Below, piece after piece: positions 38,900 through 46,321 of a DNA stretch of 64,000 bases (position 1 is its first letter; each line of letters begins with the position of its first letter). Source of the DNA: Sphingomonas arvum (lineage in GTDB: Bacteria > Pseudomonadota > Alphaproteobacteria > Sphingomonadales > Sphingomonadaceae); NCBI RefSeq assembly GCF_026013565.1, contig NZ_JAPDOB010000001.1, forward strand, positions 186,001 through 250,000, written 5' to 3'. Both the position numbers and the translations under genes were made by a program. Below the pieces are notes generated by a model that saw nothing but the letters and a program-made list of their open reading frames with translations, was not told where the DNA came from and did no database searches.

Positions 38900-39532
38900 T
38901 CAGCTGCGGTGGCGGCGGCGCAGCACCTCGACCACCTCGTTCCACCCGAAGCCGCGCGCCTCCATCAGCACGGTGAGATGATAGAGCAGGTCGGCGATCT
39001 CCTCCGCGGTTCCGGCTGGGTCACGGGTGACGGCGGCGAGCGCGACCTCGACGCCCTCCTCGCCGATCTTTTGCGCGATCCGGGTCGGGCCTTCCTTCAA
39101 GAGCCAGCGGGTGTAGCTGGTGTCCGGACCGGAGCGCGCCCGTTCGGCCACTACCTGCGACAGCTCGGCCAGCCAGGCGGGGCCGTCGAGTTCGCCGCCG
39201 AAGCAGCTCGGCGTGCCTTCGTGGCAGGTCGGGCCTTCGGGGTCGGCCAGCACGACTAGCGCATCGGCGTCGCAATCCTCGTGGACGGCGCGCACCCGGA
39301 GGCGGTTGCCGCTCGTCTCGCCCTTCTGCCACAGCCGGTTCTTGGAGCGGCTGAAGAAGGTTGCGTAACCGGTCTCCAGCGTGGCGCCGAGCGCCGCCTC
39401 GTCCATGTAGCCGAGCATCAGCAGCCGGCCGCCGTGCGCATCCTGCACCGCCGCAGGCAGAAGCCCGCCCATCTTGTCCCAGGCAAGGGCGGGCAGGTCG
39501 GCGGGTGTCAGGGGCGAACGTCGATCCCGCAT
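38900..39532 (-). CDS. hisIE: Bifunctional phosphoribosyl-AMP cyclohydrolase / phosphoribosyl-ATP pyrophosphatase
   Basis: 210 residues with both domains: HisI at residues 1-110 (LGYMDEAALGATLETGYATFFSRSKNRLWQKGE; zinc Cys in CHEGTPSCF; metal Asp in EDCDADA) and HisE at 115-205 (WLLKEGPTRIAQKIGEEGVEVALAA... AEEIADLLYHLTVLM). It carries out steps 2 and 3 of histidine synthesis. The fusion is the enterobacterial type; most alphaproteobacteria have separate hisE and hisI genes. It overlaps hisF by 25 bases. Confidence 0.95.
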   Translation of the reverse strand: MRDRRSPLTPADLPALAWDKMGGLLPAAVQDAHGGRLLMLGYMDEAALGATLETGYATFFSRSKNRLWQKGETSGNRLRVRAVHEDCDADALVVLADPEGPTCHEGTPSCFGGELDGPAWLAELSQVVAERARSGPDTSYTRWLLKEGPTRIAQKIGEEGVEVALAAVTRDPAGTAEEIADLLYHLTVLMEARGFGWNEVVEVLRRRHRS

Positions 39533-40275
39533 CGGGCGAGAAACTCCTTGAGCTCGGGAATGGCGATCAGTCGGTCGTGGAAGACGGTGGCGGCGAGCGC
39601 CCCGCTGGCGCCGGCCAGGAAGGCATCCCGGAAGTGTGCGGGCGCGCCGGCGCCCCCGCTGGCGATCACGGGCACGGTGACGGCGTCGGCGACGTCACGG
39701 GTATGGTCGAGGTCGTAGCCGGACCGCACACCGTCCCGGCTCATGCAGTTGAGCACGATCTCGCCGGCCCCGCGCTCGGCCGCTTCGCGAACCCAATCGA
39801 GCGTGCGCCGGCCGGCCGCGCGGCTGCGGGTCGGGTCGCCGGTATATTGTTTAACGTGATAGTTGCCGTCTTCATCGCGCAGGCTGTCCACCCCAACGAC
39901 GACGCACTGGCTTCCAAAGTCGCGCGCGAGATCCTCGATCAGCGCCGGCCGTTCCAGTGCGGGCGAGTTGACCGACACCTTGTCGGCGCCCGCTTCCAGG
40001 CAGGCCGCCGCCTGGTCGCGCGTGCGGATGCCGCCGGCGACGGCGAATGGGATGTCGATCAGGCGCGCCACGCGGCGGATCCAGTCCAGGTCGAGCGTCC
40101 GTCCCGCCGGACTAGCCGAGATGTCGTAGAAGACAAGTTCGTCGGCGCTTTGCGCCACGTAGTAAGCGGTATGCTCCTCGATGCCGCCCACGTCGCGGTG
40201 GCCTTCGAAGCGGACGCCCTTGACCACGCGCCCATCGCGCACGTCGAGGCAGGGGATGATCCGGCGTGCCGGCAC
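39508..40275 (-). CDS. hisF: Imidazole glycerol phosphate synthase subunit HisF
   Basis: 255 residues, cyclase half of the HisH/HisF synthase. The (beta/alpha)8 barrel has catalytic Asp residues in IIPCLDVRDGRVVKGV and in NCMSRDGVRSGYDLD. It forms IGP and AICAR from PRFAR plus ammonia delivered by HisH. GTG start at 40275, directly after the hisA TAG. Confidence 0.97.
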   Translation of the reverse strand: MPARRIIPCLDVRDGRVVKGVRFEGHRDVGGIEEHTAYYVAQSADELVFYDISASPAGRTLDLDWIRRVARLIDIPFAVAGGIRTRDQAAACLEAGADKVSVNSPALERPALIEDLARDFGSQCVVVGVDSLRDEDGNYHVKQYTGDPTRSRAAGRRTLDWVREAAERGAGEIVLNCMSRDGVRSGYDLDHTRDVADAVTVPVIASGGAGAPAHFRDAFLAGASGALAATVFHDRLIAIPELKEFLARCGIDVRP

Positions 40276-40983
40276 CTAGGTAAACAGTTCGGACAGGGGG
40301 ATATGGCCTTCCCACAAGGCCTTGCCGACAATCGCGCCATCGGTCGGCAGGTGCGCGATGTCGGCGAGCGACGAAATACCGCCGCTGGCCTGTATGGCGA
40401 GGTGCGGGAGGCGCTCGGCGGCCTCCCCGTAAAGGGCGGCGTTGGGCCCCTCCAGCATGCCGTCCCGGCCGATATCGGTGAGCAGCAGGTGGCGCGCTTG
40501 CGGGAAGCGACCGGCAAGCTCCCACAAGCTGAGCCCGCTTGCCGCCTGCCAGCCGTGCATGGCGACCCTAGGCGTGCCCTGTTCCACGCGGACGTCCATT
40601 GCAAGGGTGATGCGGTCCGGACCGAAGCTGTCGAGCATCGACCCGACCAGGTCGGGCCGGGTTACGCACAGGCTGCCGACCACCGCGCGATCGACGCCCT
40701 GTTCGAATAGGCGGGCGACGTGGCCGGCGGTGCGAATGCCCCCGGCGACCTGCAGCTTTAGGCCGGACGAGCGGGCGAGAGTGCTAAGCAGGTCGTGCTG
40801 CACCGGTTCGCCCACGCGGGTGCCGTCGAGGTCGACGATGTGCGCCCAGGTCGCGCCCGCAGCGGCGAAGCGGGCGAGGGCGGCCGCCGGCGCTTCGTTG
40901 TAGAAGGTGCTGTCCTCGAACCGACCCTGGCGGAGGCGCACTGGCCGCCCACCGATCAGATCCATGGCGGGATAGACGATCAT
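40276..40983 (-). CDS. hisA: 1-(5-phosphoribosyl)-5-[(5-phosphoribosylamino)methylideneamino]imidazole-4-carboxamide isomerase
   Basis: 235 residues from ATG 40983 (MIVYPAMDLIGGRPVRLRQG). Half-barrel repeats typical of HisA with catalytic Asp in PAMDLIGG and Asp in LTDIGRDGMLEGPN. It isomerises ProFAR to PRFAR. The start overlaps the hisH stop (ATGA); an in-frame ATG at 40995 would add four residues. Confidence 0.96.
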   Translation of the reverse strand: MIVYPAMDLIGGRPVRLRQGRFEDSTFYNEAPAAALARFAAAGATWAHIVDLDGTRVGEPVQHDLLSTLARSSGLKLQVAGGIRTAGHVARLFEQGVDRAVVGSLCVTRPDLVGSMLDSFGPDRITLAMDVRVEQGTPRVAMHGWQAASGLSLWELAGRFPQARHLLLTDIGRDGMLEGPNAALYGEAAERLPHLAIQASGGISSLADIAHLPTDGAIVGKALWEGHIPLSELFT

Positions 40984-41561
40984 GCGGCCAGCCATGCTCC
41001 GAGGAAGCGGGCACCGGCCGCGCCGGAGCGCTCGGGGTGAAATTGTGCACCGGTCAGGCGGCCGGAGCGGACCACCGCTGGCACGGTACGGCCGTAGTCG
41101 GTGCTGGCGGCAGTCGCCGGGCCGTCGTCACAGGCATAGCTATGGGCGAAGTAGACGTAGTCGCCGCTGGCGAGGCCGAGCGATGGGTCGCGCACGTCCA
41201 GCTTGCTCCACCCCATATGCGGTACGGGGCGCTCCGGCGCGGGCTGCAGCTTGCGGACGCGGCCGGGCAGCAGGCCGAGGCCGCGCGTGTCCTCTTCTTC
41301 CGTATGCTCGAACAGCAACTGCATGCCGAGGCAGATGCCGAGCAGCGGCTGGGGGAGTTCGGCGACGAGCCGGTCCAGCCCGCGCGCACGGGCTTGCCGC
41401 ATTGCATAGCCGGCGTGACCAACGCCGGGCAGGACCAGCTTGTCGGCGGCGCGAAGCACCTCCGGCTCACCGCTGATCTCCGGCACGACGCCCAGGCGCT
41501 CGAACGCGATCGCGACGGAGCCCAAGTTACCGTAGCCGAGGTCGATGCAGACTAGCCTCAC
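40980..41561 (-). CDS. hisH: Imidazole glycerol phosphate synthase subunit HisH
   Basis: 193 residues, glutamine amidotransferase. The nucleophilic Cys is in LLGICLGMQLLF and the catalytic His-Glu pair is in GAQFHPERSG. It produces ammonia for HisF. GTG start at 41561 overlapping the hisCB stop (GTGA), and its own stop overlaps hisA. Confidence 0.96.
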   Translation of the reverse strand: MRLVCIDLGYGNLGSVAIAFERLGVVPEISGEPEVLRAADKLVLPGVGHAGYAMRQARARGLDRLVAELPQPLLGICLGMQLLFEHTEEEDTRGLGLLPGRVRKLQPAPERPVPHMGWSKLDVRDPSLGLASGDYVYFAHSYACDDGPATAASTDYGRTVPAVVRSGRLTGAQFHPERSGAAGARFLGAWLAA

Positions 41562-43210
41562 AGCACGCCCTTGGTGCTGGGCAGGGCGTCGGCCGCGCCC
41601 TCCCGCGCCACGGCCTGGCGCAGCGCCCGGCCGAATGCCTTGAAGCAGGCCTCAACCTTGTGGTGGTCGTTCTGGCCGTCGACCCGAACGTGGATGGCGG
41701 CGCGCATGCTGTCGGCCAGGCTGCGGAAGACGTGCGGCGTCATCTCGGTCGGATAGGCGCCGATGTGGGTCGCGTCGAACGCTCCTTCGAAGCGGCAGAA
41801 CGGGCGGCCGGACAGATCGATCAGCACCTGCGCCTCGGTTTCATCCATCGGCAGGGCGAAGCCAAACCGGCCAATTCCGCGCTTGTCGTCGAGCGCTCGT
41901 CCGAGCGCCTCGCCGAGCGCGATGGCGCAATCCTCGACGCTGTGATGGGCGTCGATGTCGAGGTCGCCATCGCAGCTCAGCAGCAGGCTGAAGTTGCCGT
42001 GGGCTGCGACCTGGTCGAGCATGTGGTCGAAGAAGGGCACGCCCGTGTCGATCCGGCGCGGCTCGGCCATGTCGAGGTCCACCGAGACCGCGATCCTGGT
42101 CTCCTTTGTGTCGCGGACCAGCTCGGCCCGGCGCTGCTTCGGCGCGGCGGTGGCGGGCACCTCGAAGGCGCGCAGTGCGGCGTCGTTCTCTTCTGGCGTG
42201 CCGATCGTGAGCCGCACCCCGCCCGGCGCCGCGTTGGGCCGGAAGCGAATGCGGATGCCCAGTGTGTCCAGGCGCCGGCTCAGCGCTTCCGCATCGTTCA
42301 CTTCCAGGAACAGGAAGTTGCCCGCGCTTCCGTGCACGCAATGGACGATCGGCGAGGTGGCGAGCAGCGGGGCGAGCCTCTCGCGTTCCGCCTTGATCCG
42401 CTCGATCCGCTCCAGGTGAACGGCGCGCCGGGCGGGTGACAGCGCCTTCAGCGCCTCGTCGATGCACAGAGTGGGGAGCGGGTAGGGCGGCGCGGCGCGG
42501 GCAACCATGGCGATCGTCTCGGGCGCGGCGACGAGCCCGCCCACCCGCGCACCGGCGAGCCCGAATGCCTTCGACAAGGTCTTGAGCACGATCAGATTCG
42601 GCCGACGGGTCGCTTCATCGGCCAGGCTCGGCGTGTCGGAGAACTCCAGATAGGCCTCGTCCGACAACACCATGGTGTTGGGCAGCGCATCCGCTACCGC
42701 CAGCACGTCGGCGGACTCGACCGGCGTTCCGGTGGGGTTGTTGGGCGAGCATATGAAGACGAGCTTCAGGTTTGCCTCACCCGCGACGGCGTCCAGCAGC
42801 CGCTTCGGCTCGAAGGCGAAATCCGCGCCCAGCCGCGCCTCGATGACGCGGGCGCCCTGCAGGTTTGCGAAATGGGCGTAGGCGGAGAAGGTCGGCAGGC
42901 ACACCGCCACCGCGTCCTCCTGCGGTCGGCAGAAGGTGCGCACGAGCAGGTCGATGGCATCGTCCCCGCCGCGGGTCACCAAAAAGCTGTCCGGGGCCAC
43001 GCCATACAATGCGGCCATCGCCACGCGCAGCCGGATCGGCTGCGGTTCGGGGTAACGGTTCACCCCGGCGCTTCCGAGCGGCGGGAATGGGTTCTCGTTC
43101 GCGTCAAGTTTGATGGTCTCAGACCCGAATGGGTTCCCATCCCGCTTGCCTAGGTCGAAGGCGGGCAGGCGCAGGATCTCGGGCCGGGCGAGGTACTCGG
43201 CGAGGCTCAT
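41558..43210 (-). CDS. hisCB: Fused histidinol-phosphate aminotransferase / imidazoleglycerol-phosphate dehydratase (HisC-HisB)
   Basis: 550 residues in one uninterrupted frame. Residues 1 to about 350 are HisC: N-terminal LDANENPFPPLG, SPNNPTG, LSDEAYLEF, PLP Lys in TLSKAFGLAGARVG, final Arg in VRLTIGTPEEN. Residues from about 360 to 550 are HisB dehydratase: RDTKETRI, FFDHMLDQVAAHG, DAHHSVED, DHHKVEACFKAFGRALRQA, ending LPSTKGVL. No stop, ATG or GTG with a ribosome binding site lies at the junction near 42130-42160. The HisB part resembles the C-terminal domain of the enterobacterial two-domain HisB (QRRA-x-x-V-R-x-TKET), but the histidinol-phosphatase domain is absent. The start overlaps the hisD stop (ATGA). 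Confidence 0.93.
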   Translation of the reverse strand: MSLAEYLARPEILRLPAFDLGKRDGNPFGSETIKLDANENPFPPLGSAGVNRYPEPQPIRLRVAMAALYGVAPDSFLVTRGGDDAIDLLVRTFCRPQEDAVAVCLPTFSAYAHFANLQGARVIEARLGADFAFEPKRLLDAVAGEANLKLVFICSPNNPTGTPVESADVLAVADALPNTMVLSDEAYLEFSDTPSLADEATRRPNLIVLKTLSKAFGLAGARVGGLVAAPETIAMVARAAPPYPLPTLCIDEALKALSPARRAVHLERIERIKAERERLAPLLATSPIVHCVHGSAGNFLFLEVNDAEALSRRLDTLGIRIRFRPNAAPGGVRLTIGTPEENDAALRAFEVPATAAPKQRRAELVRDTKETRIAVSVDLDMAEPRRIDTGVPFFDHMLDQVAAHGNFSLLLSCDGDLDIDAHHSVEDCAIALGEALGRALDDKRGIGRFGFALPMDETEAQVLIDLSGRPFCRFEGAFDATHIGAYPTEMTPHVFRSLADSMRAAIHVRVDGQNDHHKVEACFKAFGRALRQAVAREGAADALPSTKGVL

Positions 43211-44493
43211 GCATTCACCCGGGCATCGGCTGCGCGGGCGTGCGCCTCCAGCCCTTCCAACCGGGCGAGCGCCGCGGCAACGGGCGCGATCGCCTGCGCG
43301 GCACCGTCGGCCAATTGCTGCACGGTCATCGCTTTCATGAACGTCAGGACCGACACACCGCTCCACGCCCGCGCCGCGCCGTCGGTCGGCAGGACGTGGC
43401 TCGAACCGGCGCAATAATCGCCGAAGGTCTCGGCCGATTGCCGACCGGCGAACACCGCGCCCGCATTGCAAATGCTCGGCAGCAGCGCCTCCGGGTCGGC
43501 GAGGTTTAGCGACAGGTGCTCGGGCGCATAGGCGTTCGCCACCTCCGCCGCCGTGTCGAGGTCCGGGCACAGCACTAGCCGCGCCTGCTCCAGCGAGGCC
43601 TCTGCGGTCGCCCGACGCGGCAGGTCGGCCACTTGCCGCTGCACTTCGCCCCGCACGGCTTCGAGCAAGCTCGCCGAGTCCGTGGCCAGCATGACCTGCG
43701 CCTGTGAGTCGTGCTCGGCCTGGCTCAGCAGGTCGGCAGCAACGACCGCAGGGTCGGCCTCGCCGTCGGCGATGACCAGCAACTCGGACGGGCCGGCCGG
43801 CATGTCGATCGCCGGTCCGCCGGGGAGGGATGCGACGAGCGTCTTGGCCTCGGCCACCCAGGCGTTGCCCGGACCGCAGATCTTGTCGCAGCGTGGGATC
43901 GCTCCGGCCCCGAACGCCAGCGCGGCGATCGCCTGCGCCCCGCCAATAGTCCATACCGCGTCGATACCGCACAGCTCCGCCGAGAGCGCGACCAGCGGAT
44001 CGAGGCTGGCGTCGCACGGCGGCGTGACCACTACCAGCTCGCCCACGCCGGCCGCTTCCGCGGGCAGTGCGAGCATCAGCAGCGTAGAAAACAGAGGGGT
44101 CGCTCCGCCCGGCACATACAGGCCGACCCGGTCGATCGGCCGCCATAGCTTGCGCACCATGAGGCCGGGCTGGATCTCGACCGCCACGTCGGCTGGCCGA
44201 CTTGCTTGATGGAACGTACGGATGTTGGCGACGGCCAGCTCGATCGCGGCCCGCTGCTCGCTGCTCAGCATTCGCCGAGCTTCCCTCGCGCCATCCGCGA
44301 CCGGCACCAGCTCCGGCGCAGCGCGGTCGATTTGCTCGGCGTGGCGCACCACGGCTTCCCAGCCATCGGCCCGCACGTCCTCGACGATGGTCGCGACCGT
44401 CTGCTTCAGCGCTGGGTCCGCCCTACCACTTGGGCGCGACAGCACGGCCGCCTGCTCGACGGCGCCAAGCTCGTTCCAAACTACGCTCTTCAC
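43207..44493 (-). CDS. hisD: Histidinol dehydrogenase
   Basis: 428 residues from a GTG at 44493 (VKSVVWNELGAVEQ). The family block GPGNAWVAEAKTLV and the zinc/catalytic region with PAGPSELLVIADGEADPAVVAADLLSQAEHD (residues about 245-275) are present, as are catalytic His-Glu in AYAPEHLSLN. It performs the last two oxidations, histidinol to histidine. The start overlaps the hisG stop (GTGA). Confidence 0.96.
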   Translation of the reverse strand: MKSVVWNELGAVEQAAVLSRPSGRADPALKQTVATIVEDVRADGWEAVVRHAEQIDRAAPELVPVADGAREARRMLSSEQRAAIELAVANIRTFHQASRPADVAVEIQPGLMVRKLWRPIDRVGLYVPGGATPLFSTLLMLALPAEAAGVGELVVVTPPCDASLDPLVALSAELCGIDAVWTIGGAQAIAALAFGAGAIPRCDKICGPGNAWVAEAKTLVASLPGGPAIDMPAGPSELLVIADGEADPAVVAADLLSQAEHDSQAQVMLATDSASLLEAVRGEVQRQVADLPRRATAEASLEQARLVLCPDLDTAAEVANAYAPEHLSLNLADPEALLPSICNAGAVFAGRQSAETFGDYCAGSSHVLPTDGAARAWSGVSVLTFMKAMTVQQLADGAAQAIAPVAAALARLEGLEAHARAADARVNA

Positions 44494-45380
44494 AGCATCA
44501 TCTTCTCGATCGGCAAGACCAGGATCGCCGACGCGCCGGCCGCCTTGAGGTCGTGCAGCGTTTCCCAGAACACCGATTCCTGGCAAACGGCGTGCACGGC
44601 GAAGTGCCCCGGCCGCCCGTGCAGCGGAAGGATGGTCGGTGCCTCCGCGCCCGGAAGCAGCCGGGTGATCGCCGGCAGCGCGGTGCTCGGCGCATTGAGC
44701 ATGATGTATTTGGCGTCGCGGGTGCCGATCACGCCCTGCAGCCGCTTCCACAGCCGCTCCGCCTGCTCCTGCTTGGGGCCAGTCACGGGCTTGCGGGTGC
44801 GGATCAGCACTGCCTCGCTGTCCAGGACGGTGTCCACCGCCCTAAGGCCGTTCGCTTCCAGCGTGGCGCCGGTCGACACTAGGTCGCAGATGAAGGGCGC
44901 TATGCCCAGACGCGGCGCCAGTTCCACCGCTCCGTTCATCTTGACTGCCTCAGCGTCGATGCCGCGCTCTGCCAGCCACGCGTCGACGATGTTGGGGTAG
45001 GAAGTGGCGATGCGCTGGCCGGCCAGGCTCTCTGCACCATGCCACTGCGCTCCCTCGGGCGCCGCTAGCTTCAGCGTGCAGTGACCGAAGCCCAGCGCCG
45101 CCACGACCTCGCAGCGCTCCTCGCCCTCGTCGAGCGCGAATTCGTACAACACGTTCTGCCCCACGATGCCGAACTCGCACGCCCCATCGGCGACGAAAGT
45201 CGGGATGTCGTCATCCCGCACAAACATCAGGTCGGCTGGGAAATTCTCGATTCGAGCCGCCAGCGCGTTCTTGCCGTTCGCGATGCGCAGGCCGGCATCG
45301 GTCAGCAGCCCGCGGCTAAGGTCGGAGAGCCGCCCCGACTTCTGAACTGCGATGTGCAGCCGCTCCGCGTCAACCAGCAT
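44490..45380 (-). CDS. hisG: ATP phosphoribosyltransferase, long form
   Basis: 296 residues. This is the long, HisZ-independent form with a C-terminal regulatory domain: IAVQKSGRLSD at the start, FVRDDDIPTFV, ICDLVSTGATLEANGLR, and the C-terminal AGASAILVLPIEKMML, similar to E. coli HisG. It begins the pathway and is normally feedback-inhibited by histidine. The start overlaps the end of the trpR-like gene by 11 bases. Confidence 0.95.
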   Translation of the reverse strand: MLVDAERLHIAVQKSGRLSDLSRGLLTDAGLRIANGKNALAARIENFPADLMFVRDDDIPTFVADGACEFGIVGQNVLYEFALDEGEERCEVVAALGFGHCTLKLAAPEGAQWHGAESLAGQRIATSYPNIVDAWLAERGIDAEAVKMNGAVELAPRLGIAPFICDLVSTGATLEANGLRAVDTVLDSEAVLIRTRKPVTGPKQEQAERLWKRLQGVIGTRDAKYIMLNAPSTALPAITRLLPGAEAPTILPLHGRPGHFAVHAVCQESVFWETLHDLKAAGASAILVLPIEKMML

Positions 45381-45678
45381 TAGCCGCCTCCAGCGCGTCG
45401 ATCGTCTGCCGGTATCCCATGTGCGGCTCCTGCCGCAGGAACCGGGCGACCCGCACGATGGTGGTAGTGCTGACCCCCGTCGCTTCGTGGATGTCGCGAT
45501 AGCTCATGTCCGTCCGGTCCAGCAGGCGCGCGACATGCCAGCGCTCGGCCAGCGTCCTGACCTCCGCCGGCGTGCACAGATCGGTGAGCAGCCGCCGCAT
45601 CTGCGCCGGATCGTCGGGCACGAGCAGAGCCGCGCACAATTGATCGGTGAGGGTATCGAGGTTCTTGGTCGGGCTCAT
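45370..45678 (-). CDS. TrpR/YerC-family transcriptional regulator of the his operon
   Basis: 102 residues of the TrpR-like YerC/YecD family. The helix-turn-helix is DMSYRDIHEATGVSTTTIVRVARFL (recognition helix around residues 68-82), preceded by CTPAEVRTLAERWHVARLL. First gene of the his operon, overlapping hisG by 11 bases. A 26-bp inverted repeat lies 4 bases before its ATG, so autoregulation of the operon is likely. YerC-like proteins are regarded as histidine regulators in some bacteria; the effector here is inferred to be histidine. Confidence 0.88.
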   Translation of the reverse strand: MSPTKNLDTLTDQLCAALLVPDDPAQMRRLLTDLCTPAEVRTLAERWHVARLLDRTDMSYRDIHEATGVSTTTIVRVARFLRQEPHMGYRQTIDALEAANAG

Positions 45679-45681
45679 CTT

Positions 45682-45707
45682 GTTACAACGTGGTAGAACG
45701 TTGCAAC
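45682..45707. promoter_or_regulatory. Likely operator of the his operon
   Basis: GTTACAACGT-N6-ACGTTGCAAC: two 10-base arms that are reverse complements except one base, with spacer GGTAGA. It starts 4 bases from the start codon of the TrpR-like regulator, so bound protein would block transcription or ribosome access. The 22-bp-centre spacing fits a dimeric TrpR-type binder. It is the only such repeat seen near the operon. Confidence 0.65.
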
Positions 45708-45796
45708 GCAGTTAGGAGCGGCTGACGGCGAACGCAACCCTGTCGGTCGGTCAAACGGGTGATGACGGGTCGAGGCTTCGCCACTAGACGGGGGTC

Positions 45797-46321
45797 ATGC
45801 CGCTCTACGCCTTCGACAACCAGAGCCCGCAAGTCGCTCCGGGCGCCTGGGCAGCGCCGTCCGCTGATTTGATTGGCGACGTTCGCTTGGCACCTCGCGC
45901 CAGCGTCTGGTTCGGCGCGGTGATCCGGGCCGACAACACACCGATCATCGTCGGCGAGGAGAGCAATATCCAGGATGGGGCCGTGTGCCATTCCGATCCC
46001 GGCGCGCCGCTCCTTATCGGCGCGCGGGTCACGATCGGGCACCAGGCCATCCTGCACGGCTGCACGATCGGTGCAGGATCGCTGATCGGCATGGGCGCGC
46101 GGGTCCTCAACCACGCGGTGATCGCCGAGCGCTGCCTTGTCGGCGCCGGCGCGCTCGTAACTGAGGGCAAGGCGTTCGAGCCTGGCTATCTGATCGTCGG
46201 CTCGCCGGCGCGAGCGGTGCGGGCGCTGAGCGAGGCCGAACTTGCCGCACTTGAACTGTCCGCCGCCCATTATGCCGAGAAGGCAGCGCGATATGCGGCG
46301 GACCTAAAGGTGGTCGGGTAG
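45797..46321 (+). CDS. Gamma carbonic anhydrase family protein
   Basis: 174 residues of left-handed beta helix with hexapeptide repeats (IGDVRLAPRASVWFGAVIRADNTPIIVGEESNIQDGAVCH; quoted residues about 25-64). Metal-binding His are in GAVCHSD and IGHQAILHG. Members may be true carbonic anhydrases or ferripyochelin-binding-like proteins; activity here is unproven. It is divergent from the his operon with 118 bases between starts. Confidence 0.9.
   Translation: MPLYAFDNQSPQVAPGAWAAPSADLIGDVRLAPRASVWFGAVIRADNTPIIVGEESNIQDGAVCHSDPGAPLLIGARVTIGHQAILHGCTIGAGSLIGMGARVLNHAVIAERCLVGAGALVTEGKAFEPGYLIVGSPARAVRALSEAELAALELSAAHYAEKAARYAADLKVVG

Follow-up and report, generated by a model that had tools for sequence, protein, structure and literature searches.

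A 26-bp palindrome directly upstream of hisR in this sphingomonad (45682–45707) serves, with high probability, as the HisR operator of the operon hisR-hisG-hisD-hisCB-hisH-hisA-hisF-hisIE, which is predicted to be autoregulated and to be shut down by histidine-loaded HisR, most likely as two dimers. The palindrome is very probably a switch by which a histidine-sensing repressor turns off the his genes along with its own gene; switches of this kind are known, but here the operator appears to consist of two overlapping sites rather than a single one. In the window, i.e. the whole 64-kb stretch of DNA that was analysed, the element reads GTTACAACGT-GGTAGA-ACGTTGCAAC, its two arms (45682–45691 and 45698–45707) being complementary at nine of ten positions and separated by a 6-nt spacer. 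The near-perfect palindrome described by the initial annotation is therefore real, and the gap to the start codon is three bases rather than the four given there: on the coding (minus) strand, the palindrome is followed by AAG and then by the hisR ATG (45678–45676). Palindromes of the same 10-6-10 layout with at least 9/10 paired positions occur six times in the 64-kb window, with a mean of 6.0 in 20 mononucleotide shuffles, so that rarity carries no weight and was dropped as evidence. The conservation and the position of the element are far above chance.

The gene that follows, hisR (45370–45678, minus strand, like the rest of the operon), encodes a 102-residue HisR regulator of the YerC/YecD type in the TrpR family and heads the his operon. 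The protein scores 70.7 bits against Pfam Trp_repressor and 54.3 bits against the NCBIfam model for YerC/YecD TrpR-related proteins (TIGR02531, cut-off 42.2), and its 31.1 bits against the TrpR equivalog TIGR01321 lie below the cut-off of 67.25, placing it outside TrpR as defined by that model. By sequence, the solved relatives are 3g1c, 3frw and 3kor, the first being a Eubacterium eligens protein named HisR by Ashniev et al. (PMC9413887). The top three rows of a Foldseek search with an AlphaFold2 model of the protein (mean pLDDT 95.6) are 3frw, 3kor and 3g1c, with TM values of 0.79–0.83. In a tree of 66 proteins, based on 85 columns, with 30 of 63 inner branches open and without Firmicutes HisR, 16 sphingomonad sequences form one group (83/81) and 11 TrpR-type proteins another (98/95), with the other HisR proteins on the sphingomonads' side; "TrpR-type" is our own label for these 11, given from scores under the YerC cut-off and from reading alone. 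Profile, solved relatives, fold and tree agree with the earlier assignment of the regulator to the TrpR family, and specify it as HisR. Downstream follow hisG (44490–45380), a long form with a HisG_C domain that overlaps hisR by 11 nt, hisD (43207–44493; TIGR00069, start codon chosen by hand), a joint hisC-hisB reading frame (41558–43207), hisH (40980–41561; TIGR01855), hisA (40276–40995; TIGR00007 at 199 bits, under the 228.95 cut-off), hisF (39508–40275; TIGR00735) and hisIE (38900–39532; NF002747). The hisC-hisB frame encodes 549 residues, with TIGR01141 at 8–349 and HisB at 358–549, both profiles scoring over a curated cut-off. It is free of stops in 15 of the 17 related loci with a match, and the other two (L011, L012) give split matches.

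Searched for before the his genes of relatives, the element was found with a distribution that follows hisR. Of the 71 genomes from the window's genus, 49 carry hisR; a copy with at most three mismatches adjoins the gene in 47 of these 49, which is not a fully independent test given that the pattern was derived from the first loci and some of these recur in the genus sample, and there is no match in any of the 22 genomes lacking hisR. The two exceptions are G577, where hisR lies at a contig end and the sole match is on another contig, and G531, which has a four-mismatch copy. A protein search gave 27 loci and, once L027 (no true relative) was removed, the element precedes hisR at up to three mismatches in 24 of 26, the exceptions (L025 and L026) being distant alphaproteobacterial records. 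In the order, a copy accompanies 63 of 68 distinct HisR proteins at up to three mismatches and 66 of them at up to five. By itself the pattern fails to find operators, because only five of the 33 matching genomes in an order-wide search of 147 have the match beside hisR (G000, G094, G103, G135 and G140); the other 28 genomes have scattered matches, all at three mismatches except one at two, and a reversed control was commoner, matching in more than 28 genomes. Among the eight hisR-containing genomes of the order sample, G009, G016 and G114 lack a match at up to three mismatches beside the gene; the first two have TGTATTA-type tandem sites instead, and G114 has a five-mismatch copy.

Judged by its half-site register, the operator is probably a 28-bp composite (45681–45708, minus strand; the palindrome plus one base on each side) in which two 20-bp TrpR-family sites, shifted by 8 bp, overlap and provide four yGTnnyA half-sites. 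The predicted site of dimer A (45689–45708, minus strand) combines CGTTGCA (45702–45708) with CGTGGTA (45689–45695, opposite strand), and that of dimer B (45681–45700, minus strand) CGTTCTA (45694–45700) with TGTTACA (45681–45687, opposite strand). The centres of the two predicted sites are 8 bp apart, in a register drawn from comparisons among sphingomonads and with other lineages. For Proteobacteria, the HisR site has been published as the 20-bp palindrome TGTAnTArnnnnyTnTTACA (PMC9413887), with which the window agrees, in direct reading, at 10 of 14 specified positions for 45681–45700 and at 8 of 14 for 45689–45708. Both the 26-mer pattern and yGTnnyA were worded after the sphingomonad sites and the published consensus had been seen, which makes the sphingomonad counts partly circular and the other lineages the more independent test; counted in this way, 47 of 66 sphingomonad operators have yGTnnyA at every one of the four positions (forward at 0 and 8, reverse at 19 and 27), against 2 of 2,244 background positions with four half-sites. 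Singly, positions 0, 8, 19 and 27 carry the half-site in 57, 61, 60 and 65 of the 66 operators, a set that omits L137 (contig end) and L036 (seven mismatches). When scored against TGTAnTA (maximum 6), the top four positions are +8 (4.52), +21 (4.29), −19 (4.17) and −27 (3.93), i.e. three expected positions and an unexpected one (+21); the outer-left position scores 3.24 and ranks seventh. The element is the sole place in the 64-kb window with at least three of four half-sites in the tandem register, and all four are present there.

The initial annotation had instead proposed a site for a single dimer, which would read the 10-bp arm on each side of the 6-bp spacer. This geometry has something in its favour, as the symmetry among 58 distinct 26-mers is highest at the 26-mer centre (0.636), followed by 0.529 at 17.5 and about 0.44 at each of 8.5, 9.5 and 18.5. 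Nevertheless we consider it doubtful: published HisR and TrpR sites are about 20 bp long (PMC9413887), versus arms reaching over 26–28 bp here, and there is further symmetry 4 bp off the centre, the observed values at 9.5 plus 17.5 being reached in just 8 of 1,501 arm-column permutations (every third sequence). A single dimer would also leave aside the enrichment of 8-bp neighbours in other lineages. Outside the family of the window, the exact dyad yGTnnyA-N6-TRnnACR is found in 28 of 34 hisR upstreams (300 bp), compared to 6 of 1,700 shuffled ones, and is absent from the other six; with four more genes added, the dyad accompanies 32 of 38 distinct proteins. (L036 and L038, from the same order but another family, are in both the 68- and the 38-protein sets, and L038 is also among the 66 operators.) An extra half-site lies exactly 8 bp off in 22 of the 32 dyads, the offsets of extra half-sites being −8 in 19 cases, +8 in 10 and +13 in 5, with at most 3 at any other. 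These counts ignore kinship; of the 22 operators that have such a neighbour, 21 (all but L026) are spread over 12 families. With the edge-near L078, L087 and L139 omitted, two of which have an 8-bp neighbour, 20 of 29 dyads outside the family have the extra half-site at 8 bp: an outer one is present in 17 of the 29, versus 0.28 expected and a maximum of 4 in 2,000 flank-shuffle trials, and an inner one in 9 of the 29, versus 1.75 expected and a maximum of 7 with shuffled flanks. Gammaproteobacterial HisR genes have the dyad in nine of nine cases but the 8-bp neighbour in only two of nine. In the upstreams of L070 (G262) and L082 (G366), there are two separate 20-bp HisR-type dyads with starts 23 bp apart, a spacing of about two helical turns as opposed to the overlapping 8-bp arrangement only.

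Tandem TrpR dimers are spaced 8 bp apart, and half-sites repeated in an 8-bp register are present in the sphingomonads, in the other lineages and in the window itself. Among 12 TrpR-type genes, four have three half-sites in this same register and seven have the 12-bp inner pair. On balance we lean towards a more general view of alphaproteobacterial HisR, in which most operators would consist of overlapping 20-bp sites in an 8-bp register and his expression would be shut off cooperatively by two (or more) dimers; in the sphingomonads the arrangement would have become a fixed 28-bp operator with four half-sites over the transcription start, which could be swapped in evolution for a ribosome-dependent attenuator.

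How would the proposed two-dimer operator act on the operon? A putative promoter, TTGCGT-N17-TAACTG (45709–45737, minus strand), has its −35 element at 45732–45737 and its −10 element at 45709–45714. Because the −10 ends where the operator begins, transcription is predicted to start inside the operator, at about 45700–45702. A strict sigma-70 scan gave no match for this promoter, which would accordingly be weak or off-consensus. With the operator as anchor, 42 of 66 upstreams have TTG-n3-N17-TA and 14 of 66 its N16 form, compared to 0–2 for other spacers; the promoter TA sits 5–9 nt before the 26-mer. When histidine is plentiful, HisR together with histidine would occupy the 28-bp site, most likely in the form of two adjacent dimers with an 8-bp distance between their centres, much as TrpR binds in tandem. 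Since transcription would start within the operator, bound HisR is expected to exclude RNA polymerase and so to bring down the expression of hisR and every his gene at once; as histidine drops, HisR would release the operator and the operon would be expressed. Points against this account are that the palindrome is at chance level, that the strict promoter scan is empty, that the outer-left position agrees poorly with TGTAnTA and the unneeded +21 scores well, that the symmetry at 9.5 is matched at 8.5 and 18.5, that six of the 34 upstreams outside the family lack an exact dyad, and that most gammaproteobacterial sites have no 8-bp neighbour.

Histidine as the co-repressor is proposed by analogy with HisR of Ruminococcus gnavus (Firmicutes), which binds DNA with histidine and does not do so without (PMC9413887). 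HisR might conceivably use the operator with another ligand, such as a different amino acid or a pathway intermediate: the histidine response is reported for a Firmicutes protein, and a HisR2 paralogue is tied to tyrosine/tyramine genes (PMC9413887). We regard another ligand as unlikely, given the histidine dependence of R. gnavus HisR-DNA binding, the below-cut-off score of the protein against the TrpR model, and the fact that the his operon was the only target found when further HisR targets were sought in the 2.75-Mb genome. In that genome the element is the single site for the 26-mer patterns at up to three mismatches (reversed control: 0 and 1 places), and the four-half-site pattern gives one place at zero mismatches and five at three (control: 10).

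A very improbable alternative is that the repeat works at the RNA level, as a hairpin close to the start codon that controls translation or transcript stability. A 10-bp hairpin can form on the coding strand (−7 kcal/mol with DNA parameters, z −2.4); however, much of the 5′ arm would go untranscribed, as the predicted start lies inside the element and the arm would be part of the transcript at most partially. Moreover, conservation tracks the half-sites, whose invariant and free positions line up with those of other lineages, and the presence of the element follows the hisR gene. That the palindrome is due to chance, as the six equally good ones in the window could suggest, or serves the divergent gamma-carbonic-anhydrase-like gene at 45797, can practically be dismissed in view of the conservation beside hisR and the fact that just one of the 26 loci has a match to this neighbour.

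The proposed two-dimer operator invites comparison with several known systems. HisR sites immediately upstream of hisR-his operons have been published for other Proteobacteria (PMC9413887), and for this reason, as well as the conservation, the interpretation in the initial annotation of an operon-wide, autoregulatory operator is essentially right. The HisR (YerC) regulons of Ashniev et al. 2022 (PMC9413887) share the protein family and the predicted autoregulation; they differ in their alphaproteobacterial hosts, which are Rhodobacterales and Caulobacterales (11 genomes) as opposed to a sphingomonad, and in their site, one 20-bp palindrome compared to the predicted 28-bp composite of two. The main text of that paper, as distinct from its figures and supplementary site lists, does not contain "Sphingomon"; the words "tandem" and "half-site" occur there solely in connection with leader codons, T-boxes and TrpR. 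The part of PMC5343134 on TrpR in Proteobacteria does not mention HisR, and among titles and abstract starts of the open-licence literature we recognised no study devoted to HisR in sphingomonads or to HisR operators of the tandem kind. TrpR of E. coli (PDB 1tro, 1trr) belongs to the same fold family as the window HisR, and its tandem binding as paired dimers is documented on synthetic operators (PMC8745587). It differs in its regulon, presumably in its ligand, in its half-site (GNACT versus yGTnnyA) and in lying on a separate side of the tree, although several of the TrpR-type genes sampled have upstream half-sites in the same 8-bp register as the HisR operator. The results extend predicted HisR control to the sphingomonads, with an operator that can be read half-site by half-site, and suggest that the histidine-linked relatives of TrpR commonly share its tandem binding; natural operators with two, three or four half-sites would then allow cooperativity to be tested in the TrpR family. 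Finally, the ribosome-dependent his attenuator of the E. coli type (PMC9413887) serves the same purpose, turning down the his operon under ample histidine. It works through RNA and the ribosome; none was seen before the operon of the window, but in G551 one apparently stands in for HisR.

G551 (locus L110) has kept the his operon, with hisG and hisF, but has lost hisR. The region before its hisG also lacks an operator (best match at eight mismatches); a leader reading frame ends in MRDRWTARTHHHAHVHARVAGRVVAA (HHHAHVH) and is followed by a hairpin (−16.7 kcal/mol) and a T-rich stretch. By its anatomy this leader is a his attenuator, a call based on reading and folding because an Rfam search of L110 and L086 gave no match at E up to 1, and the genus apparently offers a natural case in which an RNA attenuator has taken the place of a DNA-binding repressor on the same operon. 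Among the 22 genomes of the genus without hisR, G551 is the only one with a HisG match; for HisF, G551 has a good match, G562 one of 39% identity and G565 one at only E 7e-4. The remaining 19 have neither HisG nor HisF and for that reason look like histidine auxotrophs, some genomes being incomplete; in these 19 the his pathway has apparently been lost together with hisR. The upstreams of 25 distant-type hisG loci gave a best operator match of seven mismatches, and reading frames with at least five His in 3 of 25, none of which is a clear attenuator as judged by reading without folding. In the family sample, a HisG close to that of the window (E below 1e-110) is found in 5 of 79 genomes, all five with hisR, and the other 74 have only distant HisG matches; 18 of these 74, which are also in the order sample, have no hisR match. 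The presence of the long, window-type HisG in 5 of 79 genomes versus distant HisG in 74 suggests that there are two his-operon lineages in the family.
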